DNA of 64,000 bases from Rhodamnia argentea (taxonomy: Eukaryota; Streptophyta; Magnoliopsida; Myrtales; Myrtaceae). The stretch covers positions 4,092,001 through 4,156,000 of the forward strand of contig NC_063154.1 of assembly GCF_020921035.1 (NCBI RefSeq), in the 5' to 3' direction. Below the pieces are notes generated by a model. That model was given only the letters and a program-made list of their open reading frames with translations, was not told the origin of the DNA and did no database searches. Of this stretch, positions 4,027 through 47,768 are shown in pieces. The position numbers and the translations under genes were made by a program. Positions within the stretch are counted from its first letter, which is position 1; the number at the start of each line of letters is the position of its first letter.

Positions 4027-6765
4027 TTGAGAATAAATAAGTAATTTCAAATGTAATCTGGAGGAAAAATTGATAACTCCTTCGTGATTATAGACCAACG
4101 CATAATTGTACTATTACGCGGTGAGGATTGTAACTACCCATGAATTTCCTACAAGATGGAACTTTGCTTATTTCTTTTTCTGAGAATTAACGAATCAAAT
4201 GATATTTTTGTTTCAGTTTTTGCCTCTTCTTTTCCCTCTCAATCAAATTTTTCCTTGCCATAATGGTTCGGTTCCTATTAATATTAATGATAGAAGGCAT
4301 TTTGGGCTGAACTTGGAGGAAAGGTCATTAATTATATTGATACCTTAATTATCAAGAATGCTATGAATCCGAGCAGGCCCGTAAAAAGCTGAAGAGGAAA
4401 CAGGGGAAGGAATTCCCCAGTATGGTAGAAAGATTTCCCTATAAGTTCTCTCCGTATTCCCTCTCTTATAGGAAGAAAAAGAATTGAAGGAAACTTAGGA
4501 GCCTATTGCCGGGGAAGGAAGACCTCAGGTCAACAAGTAGATATAGTAGCCTCTCATGCATAAAGTCATGTAAGGGAAGTTTCGGCTTCCTACTAGGTCA
4601 ATCCGTGCTTCGCACAGTATCTTTCAATCAACTTGTCGACCTAGTACCCCCGGTTAAAAGACACTGTGCGCATAACAAGGATGCTTCTCTTTCCTTTTTC
4701 TTTTTCTTTTTTTTCAGTCAGTTTTCAATTTTGACCTTGCATGGTCACTATCACCGGGTTCGATTTCATGCAAACTCACGAACGACTCTGTCGGAAAAGT
4801 GGACAATTTCTTCCGTGCTACTGTCGTTGAGAACGAAAAAAACACGAGACTGGTTAATTTAACCATTTTTTTTTTTTTTTAAAGATGCCATTTCCACTTT
4901 ATTTTATGATTTTAATTACCTCTTTTTCTCTTGCTTTTTCTTGCAAGTTACTTCTCTAATATGGGCTTCTAGACGAAGGAGGGTTTGGCATGCATTCAGT
5001 CTAACTTGATCCGGATTTTCTCGATATCTAAAGTGTAAATATACAAGTACCCAAAATACGTAAAATAAGTACATAAATTCCCTTCTTTTTTTTTTTTGTG
5101 GAGTTATCAAGAAATCTGATGGATGGAGACACCCTTTGGATTCTTGGTCAAAATATGCAGCACTTCTCGAGCTCTCGATTAATCTCCGCCAGATTAGCTA
5201 GCCATCCCGACTCAAATAGCACGCGGTCGACGGTACATTATAGGTTCACACTCCCGACGACCATCTCGAACACCAATTGCTTAATCCACGAATTAGGTTC
5301 GAGTTTGGCCATGGTTTGATTGAGTCGGGTGATTAGCTGCCCGCCTGGTGACTCCAACCAACCAAATCAAACATTAATTAAGAACTCGGGAAACATTGGT
5401 ATCCCATTACTTGCTTTGTTCATCTGACCCGATTGAATATTTGCGTCACCCCTTTTGTCCTAGAAGCTTTTGAACCTACGTTGGATGTTAAAATTTCTTA
5501 CTGCCTTCACCAACTCAAAGGAAACTGCCAATTGGTGGTAGGTGGTGACTCTTTCTTTCTTTTTCCCCCTTGTTGGTCATGTTTTTTAGCTTAATTTTTG
5601 TTTGATTTTTTTTTGTTCGAGGTTGGTGGTAATTGGTAGGCACGACTTTATTAAATTATATGTAACTACCACATAATGTAACTCGAGCTTCATAGGCTGC
5701 TTCTTGGCTTAATTACATCTGAATGTGGCCTGGTTGACCGCATCCGAATTGAATTTAATCAAAATGGTGGAAGGATAAAGATATTCGTTCTTTGGATCGG
5801 GTGGACGAATTTATAATCCCCAGCTAATCTCTATTAATTAATTAATCGATTGATTGATTAACGCAAAAAAAGAAAAGTGCATCCGAACTTGCACTTTTGT
5901 AACTCAGTCAAGTATTACCAAAAAATGCGGGTATGAATAGCATGGCAGAGTCTGAAAAATCAATTTCGGTTCGAGGAAAGGAGACTATTGTTTCTTAAGC
6001 TTTGGCCTTATGTAAAATGTTGTCGTTGGATTTTTTAATTCGTTTAATGCGATCTTCTAAATATCGGTAAAAGTTCAATGTAATATCAGAATTTTTGGGT
6101 TTGCTCAATCCAAATCTTAGACTTTTTCACACAGTCAAATCAATCATTTATTGATATTCACATTTTCGGATGATTACGTTATTACCCAGATTTCAGAATA
6201 TCTTTTCGTTTGCGAGGAATAGCAAAGAAGGACATAACGTGAAATTGGTTCTCTTTGGTTCAACAAACTCAACATGAGATTTTGGAACAAAACTTTTCAA
6301 ATTAAATACAGACAACAAGTTCAAAATGTAAAGTAAAGATGTAACTGCTTCAATACATTAGGACAACATCGTTTCTATCTTCATTCATCAATAATGTCCT
6401 TCCTAAATTCATATGCTAATCAATTTGGCATATTTAATCTCTATATAGCTTAATGAGCTACCTGCGGGCTGCCGAAGATAGGTTTTGTGGCGATTTCAAA
6501 CATGAAATATCACGGATATATGAGAGAATTGATAACTTCAAGCGGCACGGACCGTACACAAATTGTGTAAGAATTTAATCGAGGACAAAGCCTGAGGACG
6601 TAAATCACTTCAAATGAGACTGCACGTGCACAAGCTATGCCTATATTCAATTGGCGATAAATACCAAGTGAAAGAAACTTTATAGTTCCAACGCTTCGAT
6701 TGTCGCCGGGTCCTGCACAATCAGAGTCTCGAAATTGAATCATTCAAATAAAATATACTCGACAG
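4027..6765. other. Duplicated intergenic block, no gene recognised
   Basis: Closely matched by 15,694-18,525. It contains a compositionally distinct, less A/T-biased part at about 4380-4690 that might be organelle-derived (inference). There is a TTAATTAATTAATCGATTGA microsatellite near 5835-5860. At 6510-6740 a pair of diverged, roughly 100-bp related segments occurs, each with a CACTTCAA or ACTTCAAG word followed by a GCACGNNC-like word. Open frames on either strand change or break between the two units and are not supported as genes. Confidence 0.5.
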
Positions 6766-7519
6766 ATGTCCACGACTTTCGTTACGGGCTTTGTTAATCA
6801 GTACCCGACGTGCTTATTGAGTGTATTTAATAAAGAAATTATTCGATTTTTAGAGAGTATTAACCGTAGTATTAAGAGAGAAGTTGGTGCATTGAAAGTT
6901 ACATTAATTTTTCTTTTTATTGAAATTTACTTTTTAATTTTTCATCAAATGTCTTCGGGGACCCGCGTCGGTGAAGCCCCGTTCGTGGTTTATCCATTCC
7001 TCTGCTCAGTGGAAGAGGCTACCAACCCCGATCCACATTGGTTTGGTTGGTGGGAAGAATGTCGTGCTCTCTCCCCTCTCTCGAACGACATTGTGGGAAC
7101 CAATTTCTTAATTTTTGCAAACGGGGAATGTTTCCATAACAAAGCTCCGTTAATTTCCGGAAAACAAAACTTGGCGCTGCGGGCTCGCGGAACTCATTAT
7201 GCCCGCCCTCAACGAAGTCCCGAATCCCCACCGGTTCAGGACAGAAGCGAACACGATGGCAATTTTCACGCATTATGCCGCACATCTCGTATGGAATATC
7301 GAAAGGTCGATCCTTAAAAAAAATGTGGATTTGTTAAAAAGCCAGAGGATTTTGGACCAGTTCTTAGCGCAAAATGATGATGAGTTGGAATGTTTCGATG
7401 ATTTGGGAAGCGCAATTGTCAAAAGTAGCGGGGTTGGTGACCATAAGACGACGTCGGCTCACGCCATGCGCGTTAATATCATGGAGTCAACTAAGACCAC
7501 TTCGGACCAAAAAAACTAA
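6766..7519 (+). pseudogene. Unrecognised ORF-bearing segment, copy 1 (183-codon frame then overlapping 106-codon frame)
   Basis: An open frame of 183 codons starts at the ATG at 6766. An overlapping frame from about 7199 encodes a charged stretch (for example LKSQRILDQFLAQNDDEL). In the second unit the first frame changes at about 7203 through a one-base difference, and the frame containing NPDRFGTD continues. The two frames together may be one broken coding sequence. No family was recognised. Bases 6824-7137 are identical to unit 2. It could be a remnant of an organellar or mobile-element gene, or chance. I give no function. Confidence 0.3.
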
Positions 7520-8800
7520 GACCACTTCGTAATAATCCCACTTATACTTCAAAAATATTGAGAAGATTCTAAAAAAAAAAAAAAATTCACCAAATAGGAG
7601 AAACGAATATTTTACCAAAAAAGACAGAAATAACGAGAAAAAAGAAGTGTCCGAAACAAAAATGAAGTAAAGCTTGATAAAATAATTATCACGGAAACGA
7701 TCAAGTCGATGATTCATTTTAGATATTGTCATAAAAAAAATGAAATTTGTCTTCGACATTACTTGTGAAAGCAATCTATGTCGTAAAACACTATACAAAT
7801 CCCTCCATTTCAAATGGTACATTTCGCTAATATGCATGCGGCCCTGCTTGTAAAGAAATTGAGAGGGTGGAGACGCTAGTATGTCACAAGCGCGGGGCTC
7901 GACTCCCGCGCTCCGTAAAGAGGCATAACAAAAATCGAAAAGAAGAGAGTTAGAGATTGGACGGATAAAGAAAAAATAGTACAGCTTCGGGTCTTCCTCC
8001 CCCCTGATGCAACGGTAAACACATTTGCATTATTTCTCAAAACGGCGAAGCAATTGCGGGGGAGACAGGGTCAATGTGTCTATCGCCACTTATCCGCCAA
8101 TTCCCTCCTATAATTACCCAATCAAAACTCCACCTAATCGGAAATTTAAATCCGGCAGTTGACTCCTACAACGAAGCATCGTCTTATTTGCCTGTGGATA
8201 CCAACTACGTAGAGAAATTATAATCATGTGTGTACAAACGAGACGACTCTTTCTAATAGCAACATGGTTCAATAGAAAAATTCGACCAAACAAAAAAATG
8301 ATCCAAATAATTTCTAAACTTTGACTCCATATGCAGTGCGATACATGAATTTTTAATCATCTCAATATAGTCATCAAATTTTTAAAACCCCAACATTAGA
8401 CATTTTCATATAATTAGAGACTAAATTGAACATAAACAAAAATTTTGTTGACCACATTGGATAAATTAAAAGTTTATAGATGACATTACACGTTATTCAG
8501 AGATTATATTAAATAAATTAAAAGTTCACGAATCATATCTCGCATTGAGCTAAAGTGAGAGAGGGAACTCGTGCGGTTAGCTGTGCAGCTGCATGTCGTT
8601 TTTGCGCCCATGACGTGATGCTTTCGTGCGTCCAGTGAGTCCTCCTCTCACCAACCCCCAATGGCAATGTCCCCAAAAAAAAAAAAAAAATTCCCCACCA
8701 CCGTTTGACGAGTAAACGCCTGCGTTTGGTCCTTTTTTTTGCCCTTTTTTCCTACAGAGAATCACCGAGGGGCCAAAGAAATTTCCTACAGACATTACAT
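7520..8800. other. Intergenic upstream of PAL copy 1
   Basis: It contains A-rich runs and, at about 8290-8570, a degenerate dispersed repeat built from phrases like AAATAAATTAAAAGTTCA and CTAAACTTTGACT (family 2). The same repeat recurs in unit 2 (20,040-20,300), in the spacer (15,170-15,590) and near 29.1/29.7 kb. No gene was seen. Confidence 0.5.
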
Positions 8801-9153
8801 GCAGACATGTCGTCCACGTGTCGAGATCCCGTCCGTCCGGGCACCGTGGGGCCATCCGACGGCCACGGCAAACTCTCAACAAACCCATCGGCCCAACCTA
8901 CCCAACACTCAATGACCGGAGCCCCACTATTTAAAGGGTCCAGTTTGCAGGTGAGCAGACTCAGGAAATTCACTTAAAACATTTTTTTTTTAAGTTCCTG
9001 AATTTCCATTCGAACGGACACGAGCCGCAAACCCGGCCTCGTCCAATCATCACTTCTTCTTCTCGATTTCGAATTTCGATCTCCGTTCTCGGGTCGGAAG
9101 CTGCTCCACATTCGCATTCTGCACCTCACTTAAGCCTCGAAGTGATACGAGCG
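8801..9153 (+). promoter_or_regulatory. PAL copy 1 promoter and 5' leader
   Basis: In order: a G-box-like CCACGTGTC at 8814-8822; an AC-I element ACCTACC at 8896-8902; and a TATA-like CTATTTAAAG at 8927-8936, followed by a leader of about 190 bases to the ATG. AC elements are known binding sites for R2R3-MYB factors that drive phenylpropanoid and lignin genes, and they sit close to the TATA box in many PAL promoters. Motif presence is seen directly; function is inferred. The same block, with changes, precedes PAL copy 2. Confidence 0.7.
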
Positions 9154-12100
9154 ATGGACGTGGAGACATCTCGCGGCGGGGCGGCGGCAGCGTGCAACGG
9201 CAACGGCAACGGCAACGGCTCTCTCGGGCTCTGCAAGGGCCGCGACCCGCTCAACTGGGGTGCCGCCGCCGAGTCCCTCGCGGGGAGCCACCTCGACGAG
9301 GTGAAGCGCATGGTCGAGGAGTCCCGGAGGCCCGCCGTCCGCCTCGGCGGGAGGACGCTGACCGTGGCGCAGGTCGCGGCGATCGCCGGGCGGGGCGCAA
9401 GTGGCTCGGCGGCGGTGAAGCTGGCCGAGTCGGCCCGGCCGGCGGTCAAGGCCAGCAGCGACTGGGTCATGGAGAGCATGAGCAAGGGCACGGACAGCTA
9501 CGGGGTTACCACCGGCTTTGGTGCCACCTCGCACAGGAGGACCAAGCAAGGCGGTGCTTTGCAGAAGGAGCTCATCAGGTAAAAAATAAAAAAATAAAAA
9601 AAATGTCCCGCCTAGTATATTTCTTCAAATAATCTCCCTTCTTCATTCGATGTTTTTGTTAACAAATATAAGTAAAGATCCCCGAAAACACTAATTAAGC
9701 AATTAAATCACGGAGAAAATGCCAACCTTCGATGTTAATTACCAGCATTTCTTCATTCAATATATATATATATCCGAGAGTTTCTACATGATAATTTGAC
9801 GGTGTTGTCATTTTTTCTAATCTCACGATTTTTTAATTAGTGAGTGCTTTATGTAAAATACGCAATGATGGTATGTGAATCTATGATTAGAAATAATTAT
9901 CATATTATTATAAAAATATTATATATATATATATATTTGTTGGGAAATATATAGGTAAAGAAAAATGAGCTGTAATGTTTTTATGCACAAGTTTCTCCAT
10001 CTAGGTGGAGGGTTTATTACAATTGAAGTTGACCCATAAAGTGGGCCCGGCAAGGAGTAATTATCCCAATGCTGTCGTGTACGTGAAATATTTATTGTCC
10101 AAGATTTCTGGAATTTAGTCCTTGTCTCTCACTTTAATTAGACAATTATCCATTTACCAAAATCAGAGTCCATCCTCAATAGTAAAATTTCACCCGACAC
10201 AATCGATGGACATTTTGTCCAATTCACCGAATGATTTGGACGAATAGGCTTTGCTTAATACGTGGTTACAAGCGTTAGATTAACACTTATTAGATGGATT
10301 TGATGAGATAGAGAGGACAAGAATCTTTGCAAATTTAGGATAATAAGAAGTTGGTCTTGCATATAATTAAAAGTCGTGTGGAGACATATGCTCGTGTTAA
10401 TTAACGTTTATTTGACTATTTGAACCTCCGCCCTTTCGATAGGAAATGAATATTAGCCAGAAACCCAAAAAAAAAAAAAAATTGATTGCCCTCTATATTC
10501 ATTTTTCTGCATAAATAGCCGGAAGAAGAAAAATACTAATATTGCGGGACTTTATCGAGTTCTCATACTTTTTATTAAATTATTTTGTGTAAATAACTTG
10601 AAAGACACCGAAAAATTAGCAAAATGTATGAAGCCTAACTCGCCAGTTGTGAGAGATTAGTCTACTTTTAGAGACATTACCTCGCGTCTTTCATTTTTCA
10701 AAACATGTGCAGACATTATCCGCAAGTTCACATGAGGCAGGAGACACAAGTACCAATCAAGCACATTGAATTTAATAAAGTAAGACAACCGGTTAGTCGG
10801 TCCCCATCGCCCCATCCTCGCGTCGAATTTTAAGAGAAAAATTAATAAGTCGAGTAAAAAAAAAAACTCTTATTTTAATTTGAAATTTATATTTTTGCGG
10901 TCTTTGGTGTAATTGTCCTCCTCGTGAAGGGACTGCCAAGTGTCGGCTTAGCAGACTTAAACGTGCACGAATCAGCCCAGGAGGCCAAAAGTTAAATTTC
11001 TAAAAGTTTTTCAATTTCTAGACGATCCAAAAATCAAATTTATTAATTTTGGAAGACCTAACTTCCCATTTTGTCAATCAATGAACCGAAGCAGTTGGCA
11101 GTCTCGATCAAATCCCGAGCTTAAAACATGAACGATTCCTCATTCCCTTTTTGCTATGAATGAATATGTGGCTGACGGAATTCCGATTGGGGCCAGGTTC
11201 TTGAATGCCGGTGTTTTCGGCAACGGGACCGAGTCATCCCACACGCTGCCCCACTCGGCGACCCGGGCCGCGATGCTTGTGCGGATCAACACGCTCCTCC
11301 AGGGCTACTCGGGCATCCGGTTCGAGATCCTAGAGACCATGGCCAAGTTCCTCAACCACAACATCACCCCGTGCCTGCCTCTCAGGGGCACCATCACGGC
11401 CTCGGGCGACCTGGTCCCACTGTCCTACATTGCCGGGCTCTTGACAGGCAGGCCCAACTCGAAGGCCGTCGGGCCGAATGGGGAGTCCGTGAACGCCGTC
11501 GAGGCCTTCCGTCTCGCCGGGATCGAGCACGGGTTCTTTGAGCTGCAGCCCAAAGAGGGCCTCGCGATTGTGAATGGCACGGCGGTCGGGTCTGGGCTCG
11601 CTTCCATTGTCCTGTTTGATGCGAACATTCTGGCCGTCCTCTCGGAGGTTTTGTCGGCGGTTTTCGCCGAAGTCATGCAAGGGAAGCCCGAGTTCACCGA
11701 CCACTTGACCCACAAGCTCAAGCACCATCCTGGACAAATTGAAGCTGCAGCCATAATGGAGCACATTTTGGACGGGAGCTCCTACGTGAAGGAGGCTCAA
11801 AAGCTCCATGAGATCGATCCTCTCCAGAAGCCGAAGCAGGACCGATATGCCCTCCGCACGTCCCCGCAGTGGCTTGGTCCCCAGATTGAAGTGATCAGGG
11901 CCGCCACCAAGATGATCGAGAGGGAGATCAACTCAGTCAACGACAACCCGCTGATCGATGTCTCGAGGAACAAGGCCCTCCATGGAGGGAACTTCCAGGG
12001 GACCCCGATCGGTGTTTCCATGGACAACACCCGTCTCGCCATCGCCTCAATTGGCAAGCTCATGTTTGCGCAGTTCTCGGAGCTCGTCAATGACTTCTAC

Positions 12101-12946
12101 AATAACGGGCTGCCCTCTAACCTGTCCGGGGGAAGGAACCCGAGCTTGGATTATGGTTTCAAAGGAGCCGAGATCGCCATGGCCTCGTACTGCTCGGAGC
12201 TGCAGTTTCTTGCCAACCCCGTGACCAACCACGTCCAGAGTGCAGAGCAACACAACCAGGACGTGAACTCCTTGGGCTTGATTTCATCGAGGAAGACCGC
12301 GGAGGCCGTGGACGTGTTGAAGCTCATGTCCTCCACTTTCCTCGTCGCCCTGTGCCAGGCCATTGACCTGAGGCACCTGGAAGAGAACCTCAAGAGTGTG
12401 GTCAAGAGCACGGTGAACCAAGTGGCCAAGAAAGTCCTCTACGTCGGGTCCAACGGTGAGCTCCACCCTTCGCGGTTCAGCGAGAAGGACATGATCAAGG
12501 TGGTCGACCGGGAGCAAGTCTTCGCCTACATCGACGACCCCTGCAGCGCCACATACCCCCTAATGCAGAAGCTGAGGCAAGTCCTGGTGGACCACGCGCT
12601 GAACGACGTCGACCGAGAGAAGAATCCTAGCACCTCCATCTTCCAAAAGATTGGGGCTTTCGAGGAAGAGCTCAAGACCCTTTTACCGAAAGAGGTCGAG
12701 AACGCGAGGGCTCAGTTCGAGAGCGGGAATTCCGAGATTGCCAACAAGATCAGAGGATGCAGGTCGTACCCACTGTACAGGTTCGTCAGGGAAGGGCTGG
12801 GGACAAGTTTGCTCACAGGAGAGAAGGCGGGCTCACCAGGTGAGGACTTTGATCTGGTCTTCTCTGCAATGTGCCAAGGCAAGCTGATCGATCCTTTGTT
12901 GGAGTGCTTGAAGGATTGGGATGGTGCTCCGCTTCCTATTTGTTAG
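9154..12946 (+). CDS. PAL: Phenylalanine ammonia-lyase, copy 1 (canonical active site)
   Basis: Deaminates L-phenylalanine to trans-cinnamate, the entry step of phenylpropanoid metabolism, as a cytosolic homotetramer. Coding exons are 9154-9578 and 11197-12946 (724 residues, usual length). The single 1618-nt intron splits the Arg codon at ELIR/FLNAG, the classic plant PAL position. The MIO-forming Ala-Ser-Gly triad is at 210-212 ([12 protein letters not shown]). The catalytic Tyr is at 116 (SYGVTTGFG) and Phe143 at the FLNAG selectivity switch indicates Phe rather than Tyr use. The segment [12 protein letters not shown] carries Gln356, Tyr359 and Arg362. The start is the ATG after the TATA leader; an in-frame ATG four codons earlier is absent. 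The N-terminus has an NG repeat (NGNGNGNG) that is shorter in copy 2. The in-frame ATG at 11,156 lies in the intron and is not a start. Confidence 0.97.
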
Positions 12947-13800
12947 AAATTGTTAATCACTGAGACTGCTTCAGATTGATTTGCTCTATTCTTGGTTATG
13001 TACTTAAGAGAGTTTCATGGTCAAGTGGTCCACGCCTCAAAAAGCTGGGGTGACTGTAATGTCTATGTCTTTGTTCAGTTCTTTCTTCTTTCCCTGTCCC
13101 CACAAGGATTATATGTACTTGAAACTTCAGTGAAACAACAATGTTGATATACGTGAAGGAAAGATTACATAGCATACATTTTGTTATATTGTTCGTTCTC
13201 TTAAAGGATCAGAGACATCTGCCCTGGATTGCCATTTGCCAACCGTGCGATCATCTCCAATAAATAGGCCAAGAGGAAAAACTTTAGCGTGAACTATTTA
13301 TTTTCGAATATATCTTATTGTTTCTTCTAACTTGACATGGCCGACTGCAAATAGAGTTACCACCGGTCGGTCCGCGAGTAGTCTAAAGACGTTTCACATA
13401 CAAAAATGTTGAGGTTGCTTATGTTTGTCTTAGGCCTAGTGGGCGATGGGCATGACTATTGGAGCAGGTTGACCTACAAAGTTAGAATATTTGTAAGGGT
13501 TGGCCCCAAAAAACGCAAGAAGTCATTTGGGACGCAATATTCCAATTGAAGATAAATATCACTACTTCAGATTTTCCTCGTTCCACATTTGCATGTCCGA
13601 AAATCAAGTGACCAACACATTTGCATGTTTTGGACCAAGTAAAAAAAAAAAACACATTTGCATGTCCGAAAATCGCTTCTTAATGTCAAAGGATTCCAAA
13701 TTCCGACGTGATGAGGTTTCATGCATTACATGTTGCTTTAATCAACACTTGTGCATGTCGATGTGAAGTCGCAAGCGGTTCCGTGTGGGAGATATTAAGC
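12947..13800. other. PAL copy 1 3' UTR and downstream spacer
   Basis: The first 200 bases after the TAG are closely matched after copy 2 and probably include the 3' UTR. At 13,586-13,680 the word ACACATTTGCATGT is locally repeated about three times, with an A-run between. This is specific to unit 1; in unit 2 a different 0.6-kb sequence occupies the neighbouring position. No gene was seen. Confidence 0.5.
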
Positions 13801-14090
13801 TTGAGTCACAAAAAACAGATCTGGAAGATGGAATCCGTATTTTTTCTGAAAGATGGAGGCAGAATTTCAGTCAAAGTTGATGGAAATCTGGTAATGGTAT
13901 TTAAAGTTTCCATCTCAACGTGGGACGTCCTTCATGCTCAACTTGGATCCACTATTAACATGATCTAGCAGGGTATTCACAGGTAATACTGCCAAACTTT
14001 CCGTGCCCTTTTGGGGACTTCACTGTTATCAAATTAGAATTAACCGAGTTTATATCAAGGTTAAACTTGTGCAGCTTGTGTAATCAACAG
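13801..14090 (+). pseudogene. Plastid rpoC2-like remnant, copy 1 (internally deleted)
   Basis: This is the counterpart of the 107-codon frame in unit 2 (26,050-26,373). The open frame here ends early because about 47 bases, encoding the GTQLTL-TF part, are missing at about 13,963. The following GGGTATTCACAGGTAATACTGCC is still recognisable. It is a decayed copy with no expected product. The plastid origin is argued under the unit 2 copy. Confidence 0.35.
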
Positions 14091-14187
14091 ATTGATAAGC
14101 ATATTAGGTGGGCCACCATATCGTGTAATGGTGGATTCTCTGTCTAGCTGAACCTAAGACTAGTCATGAGATGTTTTGTCTAACTTT

Positions 14188-14753
14188 TAGGGCATGTTTG
14201 GTAACGTTTCTGTTCCAAAAAAATGATTCTGATTAGAATCAATTTTTTTGACTTTGTTCCCTAGATGAATTTAAGAGAATTAGAATGCGTTTGGTAACTA
14301 TGTAAAATTTTTGTTCCCGAAACAAAAACGTGTTTGGTAACTGTACAAAATTTCCATTCTGAAAAATGATTTCTCTTCCCAATTTGTCATTTAAATCAAG
14401 TAATTACATAAGCACTTTTGATGAATTTCCTTAGACCCCACAATTGCAATCTTCTTGCACCATGACATCTTTTTGGCCAAAATATGGATGCTTTAGATTT
14501 GTTCCTTGGAATGATAATACGCTAAAATTGTTTTTCCATACTTCTCTTGAGGCTATGCATATGTCAATGATGAAAGAGGTGACTCTTATTATCTTTTATT
14601 GCTCAATGAATAAAATCTATCTCTGCTGTATAGGTGGCTTAGTTTTACCCTTGGATACTATGCGGATAGTTACTAATGCAGCATGATACTCCGACAACAA
14701 ATCAGGCGGGGCTTAGGAAAAATTGAAAGGTAAAATCATCAAAAACAGGATTT
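14188..14753. mobile_element. Left part of inverted-end element, truncated by the duplication edge
   Basis: It starts AGGGCATGTTTGGTAACG, the same end as the complete element at 26,485 in unit 2. Homology to that element stops at about 14,753, so the right end is missing. Short frames within it are not gene-like. Confidence 0.55.
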
Positions 14754-15693: not shown

Positions 15694-18525
15694 TTGAGAA
15701 TAAATAAGTAATTTCAAATGTAATTGGGAGGAAAAATTGATAAATCCTTCGTGATTATAGACCAACACATAAGTGTATTATTATGCGGTGAGGATTATAA
15801 CTTTCCATGAATTTCCTACAAGATGGAACTTTGCTTGTTTCTTTTTTTGAGAATTAACGAATCAAATGATATTTTTGTTCCAGTTTTTGCCTCTTCTTTT
15901 CCCTCTCAATCAAATTTTTCCTTGCCATAATGGTTCAGTTCCTATTAATATTAATGATAGAAGGCATTTTGGGCTGAACTTGGAGGAAAGGTCATTAATT
16001 ATATCGATACCTTAATCATCAAGAATGCTATGGATCCGAGCAAGCCCGTAAAAAGCTGAAGAGGAAACAGGGGAAGGAATTCCCCAGTATGGTAGAAGGA
16101 TTTCCCTATAAGTTCTCTCTGTATTTCCTCTCTTATAGGAAGAAAAAGAATTGAAGGAAACTTAGGAGCCTATCGCCGGGGAAGGAAGACCTCAGGTCAA
16201 CAAGCAGATATAGTAGCCTCTCGTGCATAGAGTCATGTAGGGGAAGTTTCGGATTCCTACTAGGTCAATCCGTGCTTCGCACAGTATCTTTCAATCAACT
16301 TGTCGACCTAGTACCCCCGGTTAAAAGACACTGTGCGCATAACAAGGATGCTTCTCTTTCCTTTTTATTTTTTTTTTATTTTTTCAGTCAGTTTTCAATT
16401 TTGACCTTGCATGGTCACTATCACCGGGTTCGATTTCATGCAAACTCACGAACGACTATGTCGGAAAAGTAGACAATTTCTTCCGTGCTACTGTCGTTGA
16501 GAACGAAAAAAACACGAGACTGGTTAATTTAACCATTTTTTTTTTTAAAAAGATGGCATTTCCACTTTATTTTATGATTTTAATTACCTCTTTTTCTCTT
16601 GATTTTTCTTGCAAGTTACTTCTCCAATATGGGCTTCTAGACGAAGGAGGGTTTGGCATGCATTCAGTCTAACTTGATCCGGATTTTCTCGATATCTAAA
16701 GTGTAAATATACAAGTAAGTACCTAAAATACGTAAAATAAGTACATAAATTCCCTTTTTTTTTTTTTCTGGAGTTATCAAGAAATCTGATGGATGGAGAC
16801 ACCCTTTGGATTCTTGGTCAAAATATGCAGCACTTCTCGAGCTCTCGATTAATCTCCGCCGGATTAGCTAGCCATCCCGACTCAAATAGCACGCGGTCGA
16901 CGGTACATTATAGGTTCACACTCCCGACGACCATCTCGAACACCAATTGCTTAATCCACGAATTAGGTTGGAGTTTGGCCATGGTTTGATTGAGTCGGGT
17001 GATTAGCTGCCCGCCTGGTGACTCCAACTAACCAAATCAAACATTAATCAAGAACTCGGGAAACATTCGTATCCCATTACTTGCTTTGTTCATCTGACCC
17101 GATTGAATATTTGCGTCACCCCTTTTGTCCTAGAAGCTTTTGAACCTATGTCGGATGTTAAAATTTCTTACTGGCTTCACCAACTCAAAGGAAACTGCCA
17201 ATTGGTGGTTGGTGGTGACTCTTTCTTCTTCTTTTTTCGCTTGTTGGTCATGTTTTTTAGCTTAATTTTTGTTTAATTTTTTTTTTGTTCGAGGTTGGTG
17301 GTAATTGGTAGGCACGACTTTATTAAATTATGCTTAACTACCACATAATGTAACTCGACCTTCATAGGCTGCTTCTTGGATTAATTACATCTAAATGTGG
17401 CCTGGTCGACCGCATCCAAATTGAATTTAATCGAAATGGTGGAAGGATAAAGATATTCAGTCTTTGGATCGGGTGGACGGATTTATAATCCCCGGCTAAT
17501 CTCGATTAATTAATTAATCGATTGATTGATTAATTAATTTTGCTTCTAAAAAAAAAAAAAGTGCATCCGAACTTGCGCTTTTGTAACTCAGTTGAGTATT
17601 ACAAAAAAATGCGGGTATGAATAGCATGGTAGAGTTTGGAAAATCAATTTCGGTTCGAGGAAAGGAGACTAATGTTTCTTAAGCTTTGGCCTTATATAAA
17701 ATGTCATCGTTAGATTTTTTAATTTGTTTAATGCGATCTTCCAAATATCGGTAAAAGTTCAATGTAGTATCAGAATTTTTGGATTTGCTCAATCAAACCC
17801 TTAGACTTTTTGACAAAGTCAAATCGATCATTTATTTATTTATTTATTTTTTGGGTAAGGTAAGTGATCGATCATTTATTGATATTCACATTTTCGGATG
17901 ATTACGTTATTATCCTGATTTCAGAATATCTTTTCGTTTGCAAGGAATAGCAAAGAAGGACATAATGTGAAATTGGTTCTTTTTGGTTCAACAAACTCAA
18001 CATGAGATTTTGGAACAAAACTTTTCAAATTAAATACAGACAACAAGTTCAAAATGTAAAGTAAAGATGTAACTGCTTCAGTACATTAGGACAACATCGT
18101 TTATTTTTGGTAAGGAAATTAGGACAACATCGTTTCTATCTTCATTCATCAATAATGTCCTTCCTAAATTCATATGCTAATCAATTTGGCATTTTAATCT
18201 CTATATAGCTTAATGACCTACCTACAGGCTGCTGGAGATAGGTTTTGTGGCAATTTCAAACATGAAATATCACGGATAGATAAGAGAATCGATAACTTCA
18301 AGCGGCACGGACCGTACACAAATTGTGTAATAATTTAACCGAGGACAAAGCCTGAGGACGTAAATCACTTCAAATGGGACCGCACGTGCACAAGCTATGC
18401 CTATATTCGATCGGCGATAAATAACAAATGAAAGAAACTTTATAGTTCCAACGTTTCGATTGCCGCTGGGTCTTGCACAATCAGCATCTCGAAATTGAAT
18501 CATCCAAATAAAATATATTCGACAG

Positions 18526-19270
18526 ATGTCCACGACTTTCATTACGGGCTTTGTTAATCAGTACCCGACCCGCTTATTGAGCATATTTAATAAAGAAATT
18601 ATTCGATTTTTAGAGAGTATTAACCGTAGTATTAAGAGAGAAGTTGGTGCATTGAAAGTTACATTAATTTTTCTTTTTATTGAAATTTACTTTTTAATTT
18701 TTCATCAAATGTCTTCGGGGACCCGCGTCGGTGAAGCCCCGTTCGTGGTTTATCCATTCCTCTGCTCAGTGGAAGAGGCTACCAACCCCGATCCACATTG
18801 GTTTGGTTGGTGGGAAGAATGTCGTGCTCTCTCCCCTCTCTCGAACGACATTGTGGGAACCAATTTCTTAATTTTTGCAAACGGGGAATGTTTCCATTAC
18901 AAAGCTCCATTAATTTCCGGAAAACAAAACTTGGCGCCGCGGGCTTGCGGAACTCATTATGCCCAGCCCTCGACGAACTCCCGAATCCCGACCGGTTCGG
19001 GACGGACGTGAACACGATGGCAATTTTCGCGCATTATGCCGCACGTCTCGTATGGAATATCGAAAGATCGATCCTTAAAAAAAAAATGTGGATTCGTTAA
19101 AAAGCCAGAGGATTTTGGACCAGTTCTTAGCGCAAAATGATGATGAGTTGGATTGTTTCGATGATTTGGGAAGCGCAATTGTCAAAAGTAGTGGGGTTGG
19201 TGACCATAAGACGACGTCGGCTCACGCCATGCGCGTTAATATCATGGGGTCAACTAAGACCACTTCGTAA
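18526..19270 (+). pseudogene. Unrecognised ORF-bearing segment, copy 2
   Basis: Duplicate of 6766-7519. The frame from the ATG at 18,526 is 161 codons. It follows copy 1 closely until a one-base difference near 18,965 sends it to an early stop, while the overlapping frame (NPDRFGTD, then VWNIERSILKK) stays open. The 314 bases 18,584-18,897 are identical to copy 1. No protein family was recognised and no transcript signal was seen. Confidence 0.3.
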
Positions 19271-20540
19271 TAATCCCACTTATACTTCAAAAATATTGAG
19301 AAGATTCTAAAAAAAAAAAAATCACCAAATAGGAGAAACGAATATTTTACCAAAAAAGACAGAAATAACGAGAAAAAGAAGTGTCCAAAACAAAAATGAA
19401 GTAAAGCTTGATAAAATAATTATCACGGAAACGATAAAGTCGATGATTCATTTTAGATATTGTCATAAAAAAAAATGAAATTTGTCTTCGACATTACTTA
19501 TGAAAGCAATCTATGTCGTAAAACACTATACAAATCCCTCCATTTCAAATGGTACATTTCGCTAATATGCATGCGGTCCCGCCTGTAAAGAAATTGAGAG
19601 GGGTGGGACGCTAGTATGTCATAGGCATGGGGCTCGACTCCCGCGCTCCGTAAAGAGGCATAACAAAAATCGAAAAGAAGAGAGTTAGAGACAGGACGGA
19701 TAAAAAAAAAATAGTACAGCTTCGGGTCTTCCTCCCCCCTGATGCAACCGTAAACACATTTGCATTATTTCTCAAAACGGCGAAGCAATTGCGGGGGAGA
19801 CAGGGTCAATGTGTCTATCGCCACTTATCCGCCAATTCCCTCCTATAATTACCCAATCAAAACTCCACCTAATCGGAAATTTAAATCCGGCAGTTGACTT
19901 CTACGAGGAAGCATCGTCTTATTTGCCTGTGGATTCCAACTACGTAGAGAAATTATAATCATGTGTGTACAAAAGAGACGACTCTTTCTAATAGCAACAT
20001 GGTTCAATAGAAAAATTCGACCAAAAAAAAAAATGACGCAAATAATTTCTAAACTTTGACTTCATATGCAGCGCGATACATGAATTTTTAATTTATTCAA
20101 TATAGTCATTAAATTTTTAAAACCCCAACATTAGACATTTTCATACAATTAGAGACTAAATTGAACATAAACAAAAACTTTATTGATCACATTGGATAAA
20201 TTAAAAGTTTATAGATGACATTACACGTTATTCAGATATTATATTAAATAAATTAAAAGTTCACGAACCATATCTCGCATTGAGCTAAAGAGAGAGAGAA
20301 CTCGTGCGGTTAGCTGCGCAGCTGCATGTCGTTTTTGAGCCGATGACGTGGTGCTTTCGTGCGTCCAGTGAGTCCTCCTCTCACCAACCCCCAGTGGCAA
20401 TGTCCCAAAAAAAAAAAAAAAATCCCCCACCACCGTTTGACGGGTAAACGCCTGCGTTTCGTCCTTTTCTGGCCTTTTTTCTTACAGAGAATCACCAAAG
20501 CGGCCAAGGAAATTTCCTACAGACATTGACATGCAGACTG
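19271..20540. other. Intergenic upstream of PAL copy 2
   Basis: Counterpart of 7520-8800, with the same family 2 repeat at about 20,040-20,300 and a poly-A run near 20,406. No gene was seen. Confidence 0.5.
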
Positions 20541-20900
20541 CAGACATGTCGTCCACGTGTCGAGATCCCGTCCGTCCGGGCACCGGGGGTCCATCCGACG
20601 GCCACGGCAAGCTCTCAACTAACCCATCGGCCTAACCTACCGGTCCTACCCAACACTCAATGACCGGAGCCCCACTATTTAAAGGGTCCAGTTTGCAGGT
20701 GAGCAGACTCAGGAAATTCACTTAAAACATTTTTTTTTAAGTTCCTGAATTTCCATTCGAACGGACACGAGCCGCAAACCCGGCCTCGTCCAATCATCAC
20801 TTCTTCTTCTCGATTTCGAATTTCGATCTCCGTTCTCGGGTCGGAAGCTGCTCCACATTCGCATTCTGCACCTCACTGAAGCCTCGAAGTGATACGAGCG
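20541..20900 (+). promoter_or_regulatory. PAL copy 2 promoter and 5' leader
   Basis: It has the G-box-like CCACGTGT at 20,553-20,560, AC-I ACCTACC at 20,635-20,641 and CTATTTAAAG at 20,675-20,684. Compared with copy 1 there is a 9-base local duplication, so CCTACC occurs a second time (20,645-20,650) before the CAACACTCAATGACC block. This alters AC-element number and spacing relative to the TATA box. The leader to the ATG is nearly identical to copy 1. Confidence 0.7.
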
Positions 20901-23900
20901 ATGGACGTAGAGACATCTCGCGGCGCGGCCGCAGCAGCGTGCAACGGCAACGGCTCTCTCGGGCTCTGCAAGGGCCGCGACCCTCTCAACTGGGGCGCCG
21001 CCGCCGAGTCCCTCGCGGGGAGCCACCGCGACGAGGTGAAGCGCATGGTCGAGGAGTCCCGGAGGCCCGCCGTCCGCCTCGGTGGGAGGACGCTGACCGT
21101 GGCGCAGGTCGCGGCGATCGCCGGGCAGGGCGCAGGCTGCTCGGCGGCGGTGGAGCTGGCCGAGTCGGCCCGGCCGGCGGTCAAGGCCAGCAGCGACTGG
21201 GTCATGGAGAGCATGAGCAAGGGCACGGACAGCTACGGAGTCACTACCGGCTTTGGTGCCACCTCGCACAGGAGGACCAAGCAAGGCGGTGCTTTGCAGA
21301 AGGAGCTCGTCAGGTAAATAAATAAATAAATGTCCCGCCTCATATATTTCTTCAAATAATATCCCTTCTTCATTCGATGTTTTTGTTAACAAATATAAGT
21401 AAAGATCCCCGAAAACACTAATTAAGCAATTAAATGAAGGAGAAAATGCCAACTTTCAGTGTTAATTACCGGCATTTCTTCATCCAATATATATATACAT
21501 GGGAGTTACTACATGATAATTTGAGGGAGCTATCATTATTTTTAATCCCATGATTTTTCAATTAATGAGTGTTTTATGTAAAATACACAATGATGATGTG
21601 TGAATTTATGATAAAAATAATTGTTAAACTGTTATAAAAATATTATATATATTATATCGTGGAAAATATATACGTAAAGAAAACCGAGCTGTAATGTTTT
21701 TATGCACAAGTTTCTCCATATCTAGGTGGAGGGTCTATTACAATTGAAGTTGACCCATAAAGTGGGCCCGGCAAGGAGTAATTATCCCAATGCTGTCGTG
21801 TACGTGAAATATTTATTGTCCAAGATTTCTAGAATTTAGTCCTTGTCTCTCACTTTAATTAGACAATTATCCATTTACCAAAATCAGAGTCCATCCTCAA
21901 CAGTAAAATTTCACCCGACACAATCGAATCTACTTGGACATTTAGTCCAATTCACCGAATGATTTGGACGAATAGGCTTTGCTTAACATGTGGTTACAAG
22001 CGTTAGATTAGCACTTATTAGATGGATTTGATGAGATAGGGAGGACAAGAATCTTTGCAAATTTAGGATAATAAGAAGTTGGTCTTGCATATAATTAAAA
22101 GTCGTGTGGAGACATACGCTCGTGTTAATTAACTTTTATTTGACTATTTGAACCTCCGCCCTTTCAATAGGAAATGAATATTAGCCAGAAACCCAAAAAA
22201 AAATAAAAATCGATTGCTCTCTATATTCATTTTTTTGCATAAATAGCCAGAAGAAGAAAAATACTAATATTTTGGGGACTTTATCGAGTTCTCATACTTT
22301 TTATTAAATTATTTTGTACAAATAACTTGAAAGACACCGAAAAATTAGCAAAATGTATGAAGCCTAACTCGCCAATTGTGAGAGATTAGTCTACTTTTAG
22401 AGACATTACCTCGCGTCTTTCATTTTTCAAAACATGTGCAGACATTATCCGCAAGTTCAAATGAGGCAGGAGACACAAGTACCAATCAAGCACATTGAAT
22501 TTAATAAAGTAAGACAACCGGTTAGTCGGTCCCCATCGCCCCATCCTCGCGTCGAATTTTACGAGAAAAATTAATAAGTCGAGTAAAAAAAAATCCCTAT
22601 TTTTTAATTTGAAATTTATATTTTTGCGGTCTTTGGTGTAAATTGTCCTCCTCGTGAAGGGACTGCCAAGTGTCGGCTTAGCAGACTTAAACGTGCACGA
22701 ATCAGCCCTGGAGGCCCAAAAATTCATTTTCTAAAGTTTTTCAATTTCTAGACAATCCAAAAATCAAATTTATTAATTTTGGAAGACCTAACTTCCCATT
22801 TTGTCAATCAATGAACCGAGGTATTTGGCAGTCTCGATCAAATCCCGAGCTTAAAACATGAACGATTCCTCATTCCCTTTTTGCTATGAATGAATATGTG
22901 GCTGACGGAATTTCGATTGGGGCCAGGTTCTTGAATGCCGGTGTTTTCGGCAACGGGACCGAGTCGTCCCACACGCTGCCCCACTCGGCAACCCGGGCCG
23001 CGATGCTTGTGCGGATCAACACGCTCCTCCAGGGCTACTCGGGCATCCGGTTTGAGATCCTAGAGACCATGGCCAAGTTCCTCAACCACAACATCACCCC
23101 GTGCCTGCCTCTCAGGGGCACCATCACGGCCTCGGGCGACCTGGTGCCACTGTCCTACATTGCCGGGCTCTTGACAGGCAGGCCCAACTCGAAGGCCATC
23201 GGGCCGAATGGGGAGTCCGTGAACGCAGTCGAGGCCTTCCGTCTCGCCGGGATCGAGCCCGGGTTCTTTGAACTGCAGCCCAAAGAGGGCCTCGCGATTG
23301 TGAATGGCACGGCGGTCGGGTCTGGACTCGCTTCCATTGTCCTGTTCGATGCGAACATTCTGGCGGTCCTCTCGGAGGTTTTGTCGGCGGTCTTTGCCGA
23401 GGTCATGCAAGGGAAGCCCGAGTTCACCGACCACTTGACCCACAAGCTCAAGCACCATCCTGGACAAATTGAAGCTGCAGCCATAATGGAGCACATTTTG
23501 GACGGGAGCTCCTACGTGAAGGAGGCTCAAAAGCTCCATGAGATCGATCCTCTCCAGAAGCCGAAGAAGGACCGATATGCGCTCTGCACGTCCCCACAGT
23601 GGCTTGGTCCCCAGATTGAAGTGATCAGGGCCGCCACCAAGATGATCGAGAGGGAGATCAACTCAGTCAACGACAACCCGCTGATCGATGTCTCGAGGAA
23701 CAAGGCCCTCCATGGAGGGAACTTCCAGGGGACCCCGATCGGTGTTTCCATGGACAACACCCGTCTCGCCATCGCCTCAATTGGCAAGCTCATGTTTGCG
23801 CAGTTCTCGGAGCTCGTCAATGACTTCTACAATAACGGGCTGCCCTCTAACCTGTCCGGGGGAAGGAACCCGAGCTTGGATTATGGTTTCAAAGGAGCCG

Positions 23901-24676
23901 AGATCGCCATGGCCTCGTACTGCTCGGAGCTGCAGTTTCTTGCCAACCCCGTGACCAACCACGTCCAGAGTGCAGAGCAACACAACCAGGACGTGAACTC
24001 CTTGGGCTTGATTTCATCGAGAAAGACCGCGGAGGCCGTGGACGTGTTGAAGCTCATGTCCTCCACTTTCCTCGTCGCCCTGTGCCAGGCCATTGACCTG
24101 AGGCACCTGGAAGAGAACCTCAAGAGTGCGGTCAAGAGCACGGTGAACCAAGTGGCCAAGAAAGTCCTCTACGTCGGGTCCAACGGTGAGCTCCACCCTT
24201 CGCAGTTCAGCGAGAAGGACATGATCAAGGTGGTCGACCGGGAGCACGTCTTCGCCTACATCGACAACCCCTCCAGCGCCACATACCCTCTAATGCAGAA
24301 GCTGAGGCAAGTCCTGGTGGACCATGCGCTGAACGACGTTGACCGAGAGAAGAATCCTAGCACCTCCATCTTCCAAAAGATTGGGGCTTTCGAGGAAGAG
24401 CTCAAGACCCTTTTACCGAAAGAGGTCGAGAACGCGAGGGCTCAGTTCGAGAGCGGGAATTCCGAGATTGCCAACAAGATCAGAGGATGCAGGTCGTACC
24501 CACTGTACAGGTTCGTCAGGGAAGGGCTGGGGACAAGTTTGCTCACAGGAGAGAAGGCGGGCTCACCAGGTGAGGACTTTGATCTGGTGTTCTCTGCATT
24601 GTGCCAAGGCAAGCTGATCGATCCTTTGTTGGAGTGCTTGAAGGATTGGGATGGTGCCCCGCTTCCCATTTGTTAG
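20901..24676 (+). CDS. PAL: Phenylalanine ammonia-lyase-like, copy 2 (altered active site)
   Basis: Exons 20,901-21,313 and 22,927-24,676 give 720 residues with intact frame and splice sites. The intron is 1613 nt at the same Arg-codon position. It differs from copy 1 by about 17 substitutions and a 4-residue deletion in the N-terminal NG repeat. The MIO triad ASG (206-208), catalytic Tyr112 and Phe139 switch are kept. In the active-site segment copy 2 reads [13 protein letters not shown]. The Gln that is conserved in PAL is Lys352 (AAG at 23,567) and the conserved substrate-carboxylate Arg is Cys358 (TGC at 23,585). From knowledge of parsley PAL (Gln348, Arg354) this should impair or change catalysis. 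It may be a recent non-functional copy, an altered enzyme, or a non-catalytic subunit in mixed tetramers; sequence alone cannot decide. Confidence 0.95.
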
Positions 24677-25267
24677 AAATTGTTAATCACTGAGACTGCT
24701 TCAGAGTTCAGATTGATTTGCTCTATTCTTGGTATGTACTTGGGGAGTTTCACGGTTAAGTGGTCCACGCCTCAAAAGCTGGGGTGACCGTAATGTCTAT
24801 GTCTTTGTTCAGTTCTTTCGTCTTTCCCTGCCCCCACAAGTATTATTTGTACTTGAAACTTCAGTGTAACAACAATGTAGATATACGTGAAGGAAAGATT
24901 ACATAGCATACATTTTTGTTATGTTGTTCGTTCTCTTAAAGGATCAGTGACATCTACCCTCCATTGCCATTTGCCAGCCGTCCGATCATCTCCAACAAAT
25001 AGACCAAAATGAAAAACTTTAGCGTGAACTAATTATTTTCGAATATATCTTATTGTTTCTTCTAACTTGACACTGCCGACTGTAAATAGAGTTACCGGCG
25101 GTCGGTCCGCGAGTAGTCTAAAAACGTTTCACATACAAAAATGTTGAGGTTGCTTATGTTTGTCTAGGCCTCGTGGGCAATGGGCATGACTATTGGAGCA
25201 GGTTGACCTACCAAGTTAGAACATTTGCAAGGGTTGGCCCCCAAAAACGCAAGAAGTCTTTTGGGAC
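24677..25267. other. PAL copy 2 3' UTR and downstream spacer
   Basis: Close match to the region after PAL copy 1, including the TGTACTTGAAACTTCAGTG block that probably lies near the polyadenylation region. No gene was seen. Confidence 0.5.
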
Positions 25268-25884
25268 ATGCCTAGGCCATGAGTAGGACATTTCTGTCCA
25301 AAATGGTAAACAAGCTAGTCGATCCTAGCTAGTATAACAAAATGTCACATGGATCTACTTACGACATGTCAAGATCAATTCCTAATATACAGATCTCAAA
25401 ATTATGGCCCAAAAGCCTAGAAGAATCTCAAGAATCTTTTTTTTTTTTTTTTGTCGGGTCAAAAGAATCTCAAGAATTCAATAGACGGGTTTCATCCTAG
25501 ACGTGAGCCCAGCCCAAGAGAAACCATGGACCAAGCTTAAAAAATTGAGTCTTTTGGTAGATAAGATGTGATGAGGAGACTGAGGTTTATATAGGAGAGT
25601 ACAGGAGTGAATGGTATTTCAATGAATAATAATGAGGCATTTTGGTAGCCTTGTGGAAGTTTCAAATGACATGATAAAAAGAGTGGTAGAGGTATATTTC
25701 TGAGCATGATGAACAACAGGCAAGAGTCATGAAGATTGTTGTTTGTTTATGTATGTGCCCCATCAAGTGAAAGTGTAGTTATCAGAAACAAAAGGGCAGT
25801 GAGATCATGGGGAAACTCATAGAATACAAGTTGCAATGTGTTTTGAGAGAGAGAGAGAGAGATTCCCTCCAAGTTCTTGGTATA
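25268..25884. other. Unit 2-specific 0.6-kb block
   Basis: Copy 1 has about 70 different bases at this position. The block contains a T-run at 25,438-25,453 and a GA microsatellite at about 25,844-25,861. No inverted ends, target duplication or coding frame were recognised, so insertion in unit 2 versus replacement in unit 1 is open. Confidence 0.45.
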
Positions 25885-26049
25885 GTATATCAAGTGACCA
25901 ACACATTGGCATGTCGGAAAATCGCTTCTTAATGTCAAAGGATTCCAAATTCCGACGTGATGAGGTTTCATGCATTACATGTTGCTTTAATCAACACTTG
26001 TGCATGTCGATGTGAAGTCGCAAGCGGTTCCATGTGGGAGATATGAAGC

Positions 26050-26373
26050 ATGAGTCACAAAAAACAGATCTGGAAGATGGAATCCGTATTTTTTCTGAAA
26101 GATGGAGGCAGAATTTCGGTCGAAATTGATGGAAATCTGGTAATGGTATTTAAAGTTTCCATCTCAACGTGGGACGTCCTTCATGCTCAACTTGGATCCA
26201 CTATTAACATGACAGTAAACTTAGGGACTCAACTAACTTTAACAACTTTTCGTACTGGCGGAGTATTCACAGGTAGTACTGCCGAACTTTTTGCGCCCTT
26301 TCGTGGACTTCACTGTTATCAAACTAGAATTAACCGAGTTTATATCAAGGTTAAGCTTGTGCAGCTTGTGTAA
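26050..26373 (+). pseudogene. ORF with plastid rpoC2-like segment (possible NUPT)
   Basis: A 107-codon frame from the ATG at 26,050. Its middle (bases about 26,224-26,286) reads GTQLTLTTFRTGGVFTGSTAE. From memory this closely resembles the conserved plastid RNA polymerase beta'' (RpoC2) stretch of the form GTQLTLRTFHTGGVFTG. The rest of the frame is not recognised as RpoC2 and is far too short. A nuclear insertion of plastid DNA that has decayed is the simplest reading. It precedes a duplicated, internally deleted copy in unit 1. No function is expected. Confidence 0.4.
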
Positions 26374-26484
26374 TCAACGGATTGATAAGGATATTAGGTG
26401 GGCCGCCATATCATGTAATGGTGGATTCTCTGTCTAGTTTAGCTGAACCTAAGACTAGTCACAAGATATTCTCTCCAACTTTTA

Positions 26485-27594
26485 GGGCCTGTTTGGTAAC
26501 GTTTTTGTTCTAAAAAAGTGATTCCGATTAGAATCAATTTTTTTTATTCTGTTCCTTGGATGAGTTTTAGAGAATCATAATGCGTTTGGTAACTGCGTAA
26601 AATTTTTATTCCCGAAATAAAAACTCGTTTGATAAGCGCACAAAATTTCCGTTCTGAGAAATAATTTCTCTTCCTAATTTGTCATTCAAATCCAGTAATT
26701 ACATAAGCATTTTTGATGATTTTCCTTAAACCCCACAATTGCAATCTTCTTGCACCGTGACATCTTTTTGGCCAAAATAAGGATGCTTCAGATTTGTTCC
26801 TTGGAAGAATAATATGCCAAAATTGTTGTTTTTCCATACTTCTCTTAAGGCTATGCATATGCCAAGGATGAAAGAGGTGACTCTAATTATCTTTTATTGC
26901 TTAATGAATAAAATCTATCTCTGTCGCATAGGTGGCTGAGTTTTACCCTTAAATACTATGCGGATGGTCACCGATGCAGCATGGTACTCCGACAACAAAT
27001 CAGGCGGGGCTTAGGAAAAATTGAAAGGTAAAATCATCAAAAACAAGATTGGCCAGTTGAATGAACCAATTTCCTACTTTTTGAGATTTTTTTGGAATTT
27101 TCGGGATTTTTCGAAACAATTTGCCCATGATGGGAAAAATCGTCATTTGGGAGAAATCGGAAGGAAAAATCATCAAAAATAGAATTGGCCAGTTGAAATA
27201 ACCAAACTCCTAATTTTTGAGATTTTTTTAGAATTTTTGTAATTTTTGCCCATTTTTTAAGAATTTTTATGAATTTTCCATTTTTGAATTTTAAATCATT
27301 TTATTTTTTTTATTAATTTCAAAAAAATTACCCGGACCAGATCGGGTTGACCTGGCCCATGCCTCGTGGGTGCCGAACAAAAGTGAAAGAAGACTATTGT
27401 TGTCTTTTTGATTCTCAAAAGTGTTCTTTTTTTGGAGAACCAACTTTTTTTTTGTTTTTATTTTTTGTCTAAAAGTGTTCTCGGGAGCAAAATCAGAAAC
27501 AGAATCATTTACGTTATCAAATATGGTTCTGATTTTTTTTTTTGTTTCGTGGAACAGAATCGGAGGAATAGAGTCGTTATCAAACAAGCCCTTA
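26485..27594. mobile_element. Non-autonomous inverted-end element (GTTTGGTAACG ends), complete copy
   Basis: The left end AGGGCCTGTTTGGTAACG is mirrored at the right by CGTTATCAAACAAGCCCT (27,577-27,594). The interior is poly-T rich and carries short repeats (GGCCAGTTGAA twice, near 27,051 and 27,188). It has no coding capacity. Similar elements are often placed with hAT-type MITEs, but no clear 8-bp target duplication was found. Confidence 0.55.
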
Positions 27595-29679: not shown

Positions 29680-30099
29680 TATAAGATGACATTACATATT
29701 GATATTGGGTCAAAGTTCAAGGATCGCATTAAACAAATTGAAAGTTTTTAGGCCAAAGTTCAGTGACCATATTGCACAAATTAAAAGTTCAAAGACTAAA
29801 ATGGACCAGAGTTTAAGGGGGGTTACACTATTATTCATTCTAACTTCTCTTAACAATCTTTGGTGGGACATAATTCCAATGTGGTCTTTCTGTAATGTGC
29901 TGACAATGGTGGCTATATTTTTGAATAACATCGCCAATGCAAGTGTTAAAGATATTGATTTTACTTTTTATGTTCGTGGGATGTCATGATGATAAATCAC
30001 TTTAATACTTCTATATAGTCGGAACAATAGCAGCATTCCACTGTCCCATGGCCAATATGGATTTTTTATTTTCTCTAGGTAAATTTGATTTCCCAAGCT

Positions 30100-34848: not shown

Positions 34849-34849
34849 A

Positions 34850-35600: not shown

Positions 35601-35609
35601 TAAAAAATA

Positions 35610-38825: not shown

Positions 38826-47768
<8,943 letters not shown>

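Follow-up and report, generated by a model that had tools for sequence, protein, structure and literature searches.

A tandem PAL gene with an intact frame carries Lys and Cys at the two carboxylate-binding positions and is probably a recently crippled duplicate

The second of two tandem PAL genes in the window, the 64,000-base stretch of DNA that was analysed (bases 4092001-4156000 of contig C5), encodes what is, on its sequence, a natural double mutant at the carboxylate-binding pair of the active site. The gene, referred to here as copy 2, has lysine and cysteine at the positions of Gln348 and Arg354 of parsley PAL. We consider it fairly probable that copy 2 is a constrained tandem duplicate that was crippled recently, and that it now represents either an early functional pseudogene or a non-catalytic PAL subunit. 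PAL starts lignin and flavonoid synthesis and also feeds salicylate synthesis, and plants keep several PAL copies. With an otherwise whole gene that is missing the two carboxylate-binding residues, it would be possible to ask cleanly if PAL tetramers tolerate dead subunits, benefit from them or are harmed by them.

The genome (346.7 Mb, 74 contigs) was searched with the PF00221 profile and only the best candidates were scored. The nine matches corresponded to at least five PAL genes, of which two lie in the window, two on contig C8, and one, which is intronless, on contig C4. The two genes in the window are complete, are located 11.7 kb apart, and belong to the two units of a tandem duplication (Table 1). 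Copy 1 encodes a protein of 724 amino acids. The copy 2 protein comprises 720 amino acids, and no loss of the frame, start, stop or splice sites was found in this copy, which has no internal stop codon and an intron bounded by GT and AG. The two-exon structure is common to both window genes and both C8 genes, and differs from that of the C4 gene (L009, G000:C4:13910000-13918000), a divergent PAL of 689 amino acids in which the Gln and Arg residues are kept. The introns of copies 1 and 2 were 5.5% different, with eight indel events. Upstream of copy 2, a CACGTG box is kept at position 20554, and directly upstream of the ATG the two copies differ by one substitution in 199 aligned bases and one indel.

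Table 1. Coordinates, within the window, of the duplicated units, the two PAL genes and the sequence elements discussed in the text.
Feature	Position	Strand	Remarks
Tandem duplication, unit 1	4027..14752	+	Alignable to 15694-27050; start approximate
PAL copy 1, exon 1	9154..9578	+	CDS, active-site residues intact
PAL copy 1, exon 2	11197..12946	+	CAG at 11837-11839, CGC at 11855-11857
Tandem duplication, unit 2	15694..27050	+	Start approximate
TATTTAAA promoter box, copy 2	20676..20683	+	Kept; copy 1 counterpart at 8928
PAL copy 2, exon 1	20901..21313	+	CDS
PAL copy 2, intron	21314..22926	+	GT..AG
PAL copy 2, exon 2	22927..24676	+	Stop included
AAG codon, Lys352 of copy 2	23567..23569	+	Replaces Gln (parsley Gln348); CAG in copy 1
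TGC codon, Cys358 of copy 2	23585..23587	+	Replaces Arg (parsley Arg354); CGC in copy 1
425-bp stretch identical to copy 1	23597..24021	+	Begins shortly after the changed codons

Several other features were observed in the window. A cluster of direct repeats, about 74-88% alike, extends from 30095 to 38262 and contains several copies of a short peptide gene. The repeat-borne gene at about 30467-30730 encodes a small Cys-rich peptide, probably secreted, with a Trp/Gly-rich tail. Relatives of this gene were identified by eye near 33.7 and 37.2 kb, at least one of them apparently out of frame. Pfam analysis of one copy of the Cys-rich peptide returned no match over the cut-off, the best weak match being to Ole e 6 (E 0.076). 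At 35618-36831, a unit of 335 bp is repeated in tandem about 3.6 times, with 75% matches. In the region 38820-54398, a Pfam match was obtained for six of the ten open reading frames tested, and the genes there encode a JmjN/JmjC protein, a C2H2 zinc-finger protein, a GNAT acetyltransferase, a two-piece protein kinase and a DNL zinc-finger protein.

The initial annotation of this DNA had reported that CAG is changed to AAG and CGC to TGC in the second PAL copy, at sites corresponding to parsley Gln348 and Arg354, in a frame that is intact. Re-reading of the window sequence confirmed both codon changes, the 720-residue frame agreed with the third statement, and counting of positions along the alignment to the parsley structure (1w27) placed the residues as described. 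Among the five PAL genes found in the genome, Lys and Cys at this pair are present in copy 2 only. Copy 1, the two C8 genes and the C4 gene are of the same family, but have the Gln/Arg motif intact. The remainder of the copy 2 active site is preserved, including the MIO-forming triad (A206, S207 and G208) and the catalytic Tyr (Y112). Alignment columns showed that copy 2 retains Ala-Ser-Gly, Tyr110, Asn260, Tyr351, Asn384, Phe400, Glu484 and Gln488, and Phe137 and Leu138 of the RFLNAG motif were read from the translation. The MIO triad, catalytic Tyr, Phe switch (Phe137), promoter and splice sites had all been described as kept, and all were found to be so.

The two copies differ at four positions within the 30 bp that hold the changed codons, a density that is ordinary for exon 2 (P 0.27), and a mutational hot cluster was ruled out on this basis. 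It is extremely improbable that the two codons reflect an error of assembly or sequencing. The codons AAG and TGC are absent from these sites in the four other PAL genes found, and mixed-in reads from a paralogue were therefore ruled out as their source. Furthermore, the same 30 bp hold two more synonymous differences of an ordinary kind, the longest run of equal bases there does not exceed four, and copy 2 is distinct from copy 1 over most of the duplicated unit.

To address how strictly the two positions are conserved, homologues were collected from bacterial and archaeal genomes using as the query a stretch that ends before the motif, in order to avoid selection by the motif itself. The first set consisted of the best 80 of at least 559 relatives, chosen by the patterns YGVTTGFG and ELIRFLNA. 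The PF00221 profile added 11 loci from six genomes, and a phylum sample (PF00221 matches in 123 of its 296 genomes) added 30 high-scoring loci and 20 weaker matches among those listed. The resulting 141 loci represented 136 distinct proteins, all of them prokaryotic. One of these is cut off, and the site could be read in the other 135. Arg354 was Arg in all 135 proteins, and Gln348 was Gln in 134 and His in one. Neither Lys at 348 nor a residue other than Arg at 354 was observed in any of the 135 readable prokaryotic homologues. Other columns of the active site vary, with Ser at Ser203 in 118/136, Asn at Asn260 in 117/136 and Tyr at Tyr351 in 121/136, although, for the more distant proteins, the alignment underlying the counts around the MIO triad is uncertain. 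Some of the distant prokaryotic PF00221 proteins (within loci L012-L152) apparently have no MIO Ser, Asn260 or Tyr351, yet keep Arg354. These may be MIO-free or non-lyase proteins, the alignment of their MIO columns being uncertain.

The plant comparison comprised this genome, the parsley, Joinvillea and sorghum PALs (Protein Data Bank chains) and one published conservation statement. The three Protein Data Bank enzymes retain both Gln348 and Arg354. The nine strictly conserved residues given in PMC4102242, after conversion to parsley numbers within this analysis, include both positions. Copy 2 departs from this list at these two positions (Lys and Cys), and the other seven residues (Tyr110, Ser203, Asn260, Tyr351, Phe400, Gln488 and Leu138) are present. 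According to PMC11374720, Glu occupies the Gln348 position in EncP, a related enzyme, and this position is therefore not absolutely fixed in the family. The description of both sites as conserved active-site residues is thus borne out by the counts of 135/135 for Arg and 134/135 for Gln, and no other PAL with Lys and Cys was identified among the five genomic, three plant and 135 prokaryotic sequences.

The roles of the two residues have been described in several enzymes. Arg354 hydrogen-bonds the substrate carboxyl group (PMC11427684), and Gln311 and Arg317 of the Anabaena enzyme AvPAL are the two carboxylate-binding positions (PMC5651878). Based on the aligned ranges and the naming used in the papers themselves, the pairs Q311/R317 of AvPAL, Q274/R280 of GkHAL and Q319/R325 of the Taxus aminomutase TcPAM are taken as equivalent to the pair changed in copy 2, and mutants at these positions are less active. 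The AvPAL R317K mutant converted most substrates poorly and showed some beta-amination, and the F107C-R317K mutant had no activity (PMC6413883). In GkHAL, Q274N and R280K were active but weaker, with the efficiency of R280K reduced by two orders of magnitude and a new activity on histidinamide (PMC11432326). TcPAM R325K and Q319M were beta-selective and less efficient, and the Q319M/R325K double mutant is reported as completely inactive (PMC11374720, citing Wu 2012). The initial annotation had suggested changed or lost activity for copy 2, and the conservation data, together with the analogy to these mutants, support that prediction well.

Copy 2 scored above the cut-offs of the PAL family profiles (TIGR01226, 1137.8 bits against 519.15; PF00221, 498.8 bits against 27.3), and below that of the Taxus-type phenylalanine aminomutase profile (TIGR04473, 622.6 bits against 1250). 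The family profile score thus labels copy 2 an ordinary PAL despite the lost residues. The possibility that it is a normally active PAL which tolerates both changes is nevertheless highly improbable, even though the TIGR01226 score and the low mean omega obtained under a clock (below) would be consistent with it. The family score is blind to single residues, Arg354 is Arg in every one of the 135 prokaryotic homologues, and a mere change of R to K costs much of the activity in AvPAL (PMC6413883) and GkHAL (PMC11432326). Copy 2 is, from its sequence, a plant PAL by descent and by family profile, but two of its conserved residues are replaced and it should not be described as active.

Changed chemistry, in which Lys348 would hold the carboxylate in place of Arg354 and the enzyme would act on another substrate or with another regiochemistry, was also considered and appears unlikely. 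Both sites bind carboxylate (PMC5651878), the paired change preserves the net charge, and published mutations at these positions push TcPAM (PMC11374720) and AvPAL (PMC6413883) toward beta-amination, while in GkHAL the R280K change brought activity on the substrate's amide (PMC11432326). However, Lys348 or a loss of Arg354 was seen in none of the 135 readable prokaryotic homologues, the TcPAM double mutant at the equivalent pair is inactive (PMC11374720), and all other listed catalytic residues of copy 2 are unchanged. The charge swap is, moreover, a guess made without a structure, and a single-sequence AlphaFold model of exon 2 alone (mean pLDDT 36) was set aside. That the two replacements compensate each other in a working MIO enzyme, shifted from lyase toward mutase-like chemistry and performing, for example, beta-amination or acting on a neutral amide-type substrate, is quite unlikely. 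If true, copy 2 would stand alone in the sample studied here in doing without Arg354, and Lys in place of Arg would constitute a new mode of holding the carboxylate in a family whose Arg is invariant in that sample.

The coding sequences of the two copies showed a dS of 0.063 and a dN of 0.0104 (dN/dS 0.165, bootstrap 0.086-0.283). The noncoding divergence was 4.5%, with 5.0 indel events/kb (upstream flank and intron, 4,363 aligned bases), a yardstick that omits the more divergent 3' flank (9.6-9.9%). Only one indel, of 12 bp and in frame, was present in the coding sequence, compared with 10.9 events expected (P 2e-4), and the copies differ by 17 replacements, far fewer than the 52 that neutrality since duplication predicts for the branch of copy 2 by itself (P 2e-8). 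A codon model with a clock (equal branch time) assigned copy 2 an omega of 0.149 and copy 1 an omega of 0.076, and an omega of 1 for copy 2 was rejected (p 5.5e-8). Under the clock, neutral coding evolution of copy 2 since the duplication is thus excluded, and together with the count of 17 replacements against 52 this ruled out an old pseudogene.

Without the clock, an omega of 1 for copy 2 was not rejected (p 0.74 with C4 dropped and 0.76 with C4 included). The C4-inclusive run gave an omega of 0.40 for copy 2, with copy 1 tied to the background and the C4 branch at its bound. With outgroups this remote, synonymous changes cannot be assigned to branches, which makes the no-clock estimate uninformative for copy 2. 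The case for past constraint therefore depends on the clock, an assumption that comes naturally for tandem copies. Omega did not differ between copy 2 and copy 1 (p 0.25 with the clock, 0.71 without). Taken together, the two copies evolved at a higher rate than the remaining PAL branches (p 0.001 under the clock), relative to a background of 0.03 obtained from saturated branches, and the relaxation may therefore extend beyond copy 2. Gene conversion, with copy 1 as the donor, could also have inflated the apparent constraint on copy 2. The stretch of identity to copy 1 next to the changed codons (Table 1) is the longest run without a synonymous change (P 0.063, not significant), and is no more than suggestive of a gene-conversion tract. 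As a separate observation, the two copies deviate together at 12 columns in which four other PALs do not vary (one case being Thr to Tyr at residue 553 of copy 2), and their common ancestor had therefore probably diverged before the duplication.

Derived replacements were polarised by eye from the outgroup residues. Nine were assigned to copy 2 (L43R, R76Q, I137V, Q352K, R358C, R564Q, D585N, C587S and M696L), with G80C as a probable tenth, and two or three to copy 1, while the remaining differences between the copies were unpolarised. This asymmetry was not significant (9:2, p 0.065; 10:3, p 0.092). Five of the nine (or ten) changes of copy 2 occur at columns that are invariant in the five outgroup PALs, where 369/720 columns (51%) would be the random rate, and none of the copy 1 changes do so. 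Without the divergent C4 PAL, which leaves 479/720 columns invariant, six changes of copy 2 and one of copy 1 occur at such columns, so that the contrast between the copies is blurred. As the replacements in copy 2 strike invariant columns at about the random rate, the sequences suggest that the constraint on this copy lapsed recently. With the counts taken at face value and under the clock, copy 2 would have been released for roughly 8-23% of the time since duplication, a figure that varies with the assumed background.

The annotation's view of copy 2 as still maintained is therefore upheld in part. The mean constraint since duplication agrees with it if the clock is shared, and the recent lapse suggested by the changes at invariant columns speaks against it. 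Two of the nine changes derived in copy 2 affect the nine listed catalytic residues, which is more than random placement would usually give (P 0.005, or 0.006 if there are ten changes), but this value is post hoc, since the finding was selected for hitting catalytic residues. Read with that limit, the excess counts against pure decay and in favour of changed chemistry.

In the recently crippled duplicate that we favour, L-Phe would not be positioned over the MIO once the salt bridge to Arg354 and the contact with Gln348 are gone, so that a tetramer of copy 2 alone would be expected to have little or no PAL activity. The intact residues suggest that the protein would still fold and form its MIO. 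The pathway would be supplied by the four remaining PAL genes found, copy 1 among them, all of which have intact frames, and this would allow a late relaxation of selection on copy 2, in keeping with the counts under the clock. Copy 2 would then not have been selected for a new reaction. If expressed, it would probably join mixed tetramers with copy 1. The PAL active site is assembled from several subunits, and tetramers of copy 1 and copy 2 would thus be expected to keep some working sites. In such a tetramer, a copy 2 subunit could contribute its MIO to active sites that copy 1 completes, and could ruin other sites. From among the options offered at the outset, a very young pseudogene or dead subunit gives the best fit, and an enzyme with another substrate fits less well.

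It is doubtful that copy 2 is instead kept by selection as a non-catalytic subunit which lowers or tunes PAL output in copy 1 tetramers. PAL heterotetramers in tobacco have reportedly been the topic of one study. The intact frame, promoter boxes and splice sites of copy 2 and its mean omega of well below 1 under the clock would be consistent with such a role, as would the statement in PMC4560161 that plant PALs form homo- or heterotetramers. However, constraint that predates the two changes accounts equally for the low omega, and a protein under present constraint would not be expected to gain changes at invariant columns about as often as chance predicts.

A limited search of the literature on both residues and on inactive PALs, as far as the retrieved excerpts extend, identified no natural PAL with these two replacements. 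The engineered MIO enzymes carry Met, Asn and Lys through changes of Q to M, Q to N and R to K, whereas copy 2 combines a natural change of Q to K with one of R to C. Tandem PAL copies with lost or doubtful function have already been published in poplar and willow (PMC4560161). PtrPAL5 of poplar, the tandem neighbour of PtrPAL4, has Tyr110His and has lost the four residues before Tyr110. These changes are described there as likely to affect activity, and an earlier report of activity was argued to concern a PtrPAL4 allele. PtrPAL5 resembles copy 2 in being a recent tandem duplicate of a woody-plant PAL with an altered catalytic element, but it is the catalytic Tyr loop that is altered in PtrPAL5, whereas in copy 2 this loop is intact and two carboxylate-binding residues are altered. 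Similarly, SpPAL2-1 of the willow Salix purpurea has an early stop codon and is likely losing function (PMC4560161). Like copy 2, it is one of two tandem PAL copies that is likely to be losing function, through an early stop in SpPAL2-1 and through replacement of active-site residues in copy 2.
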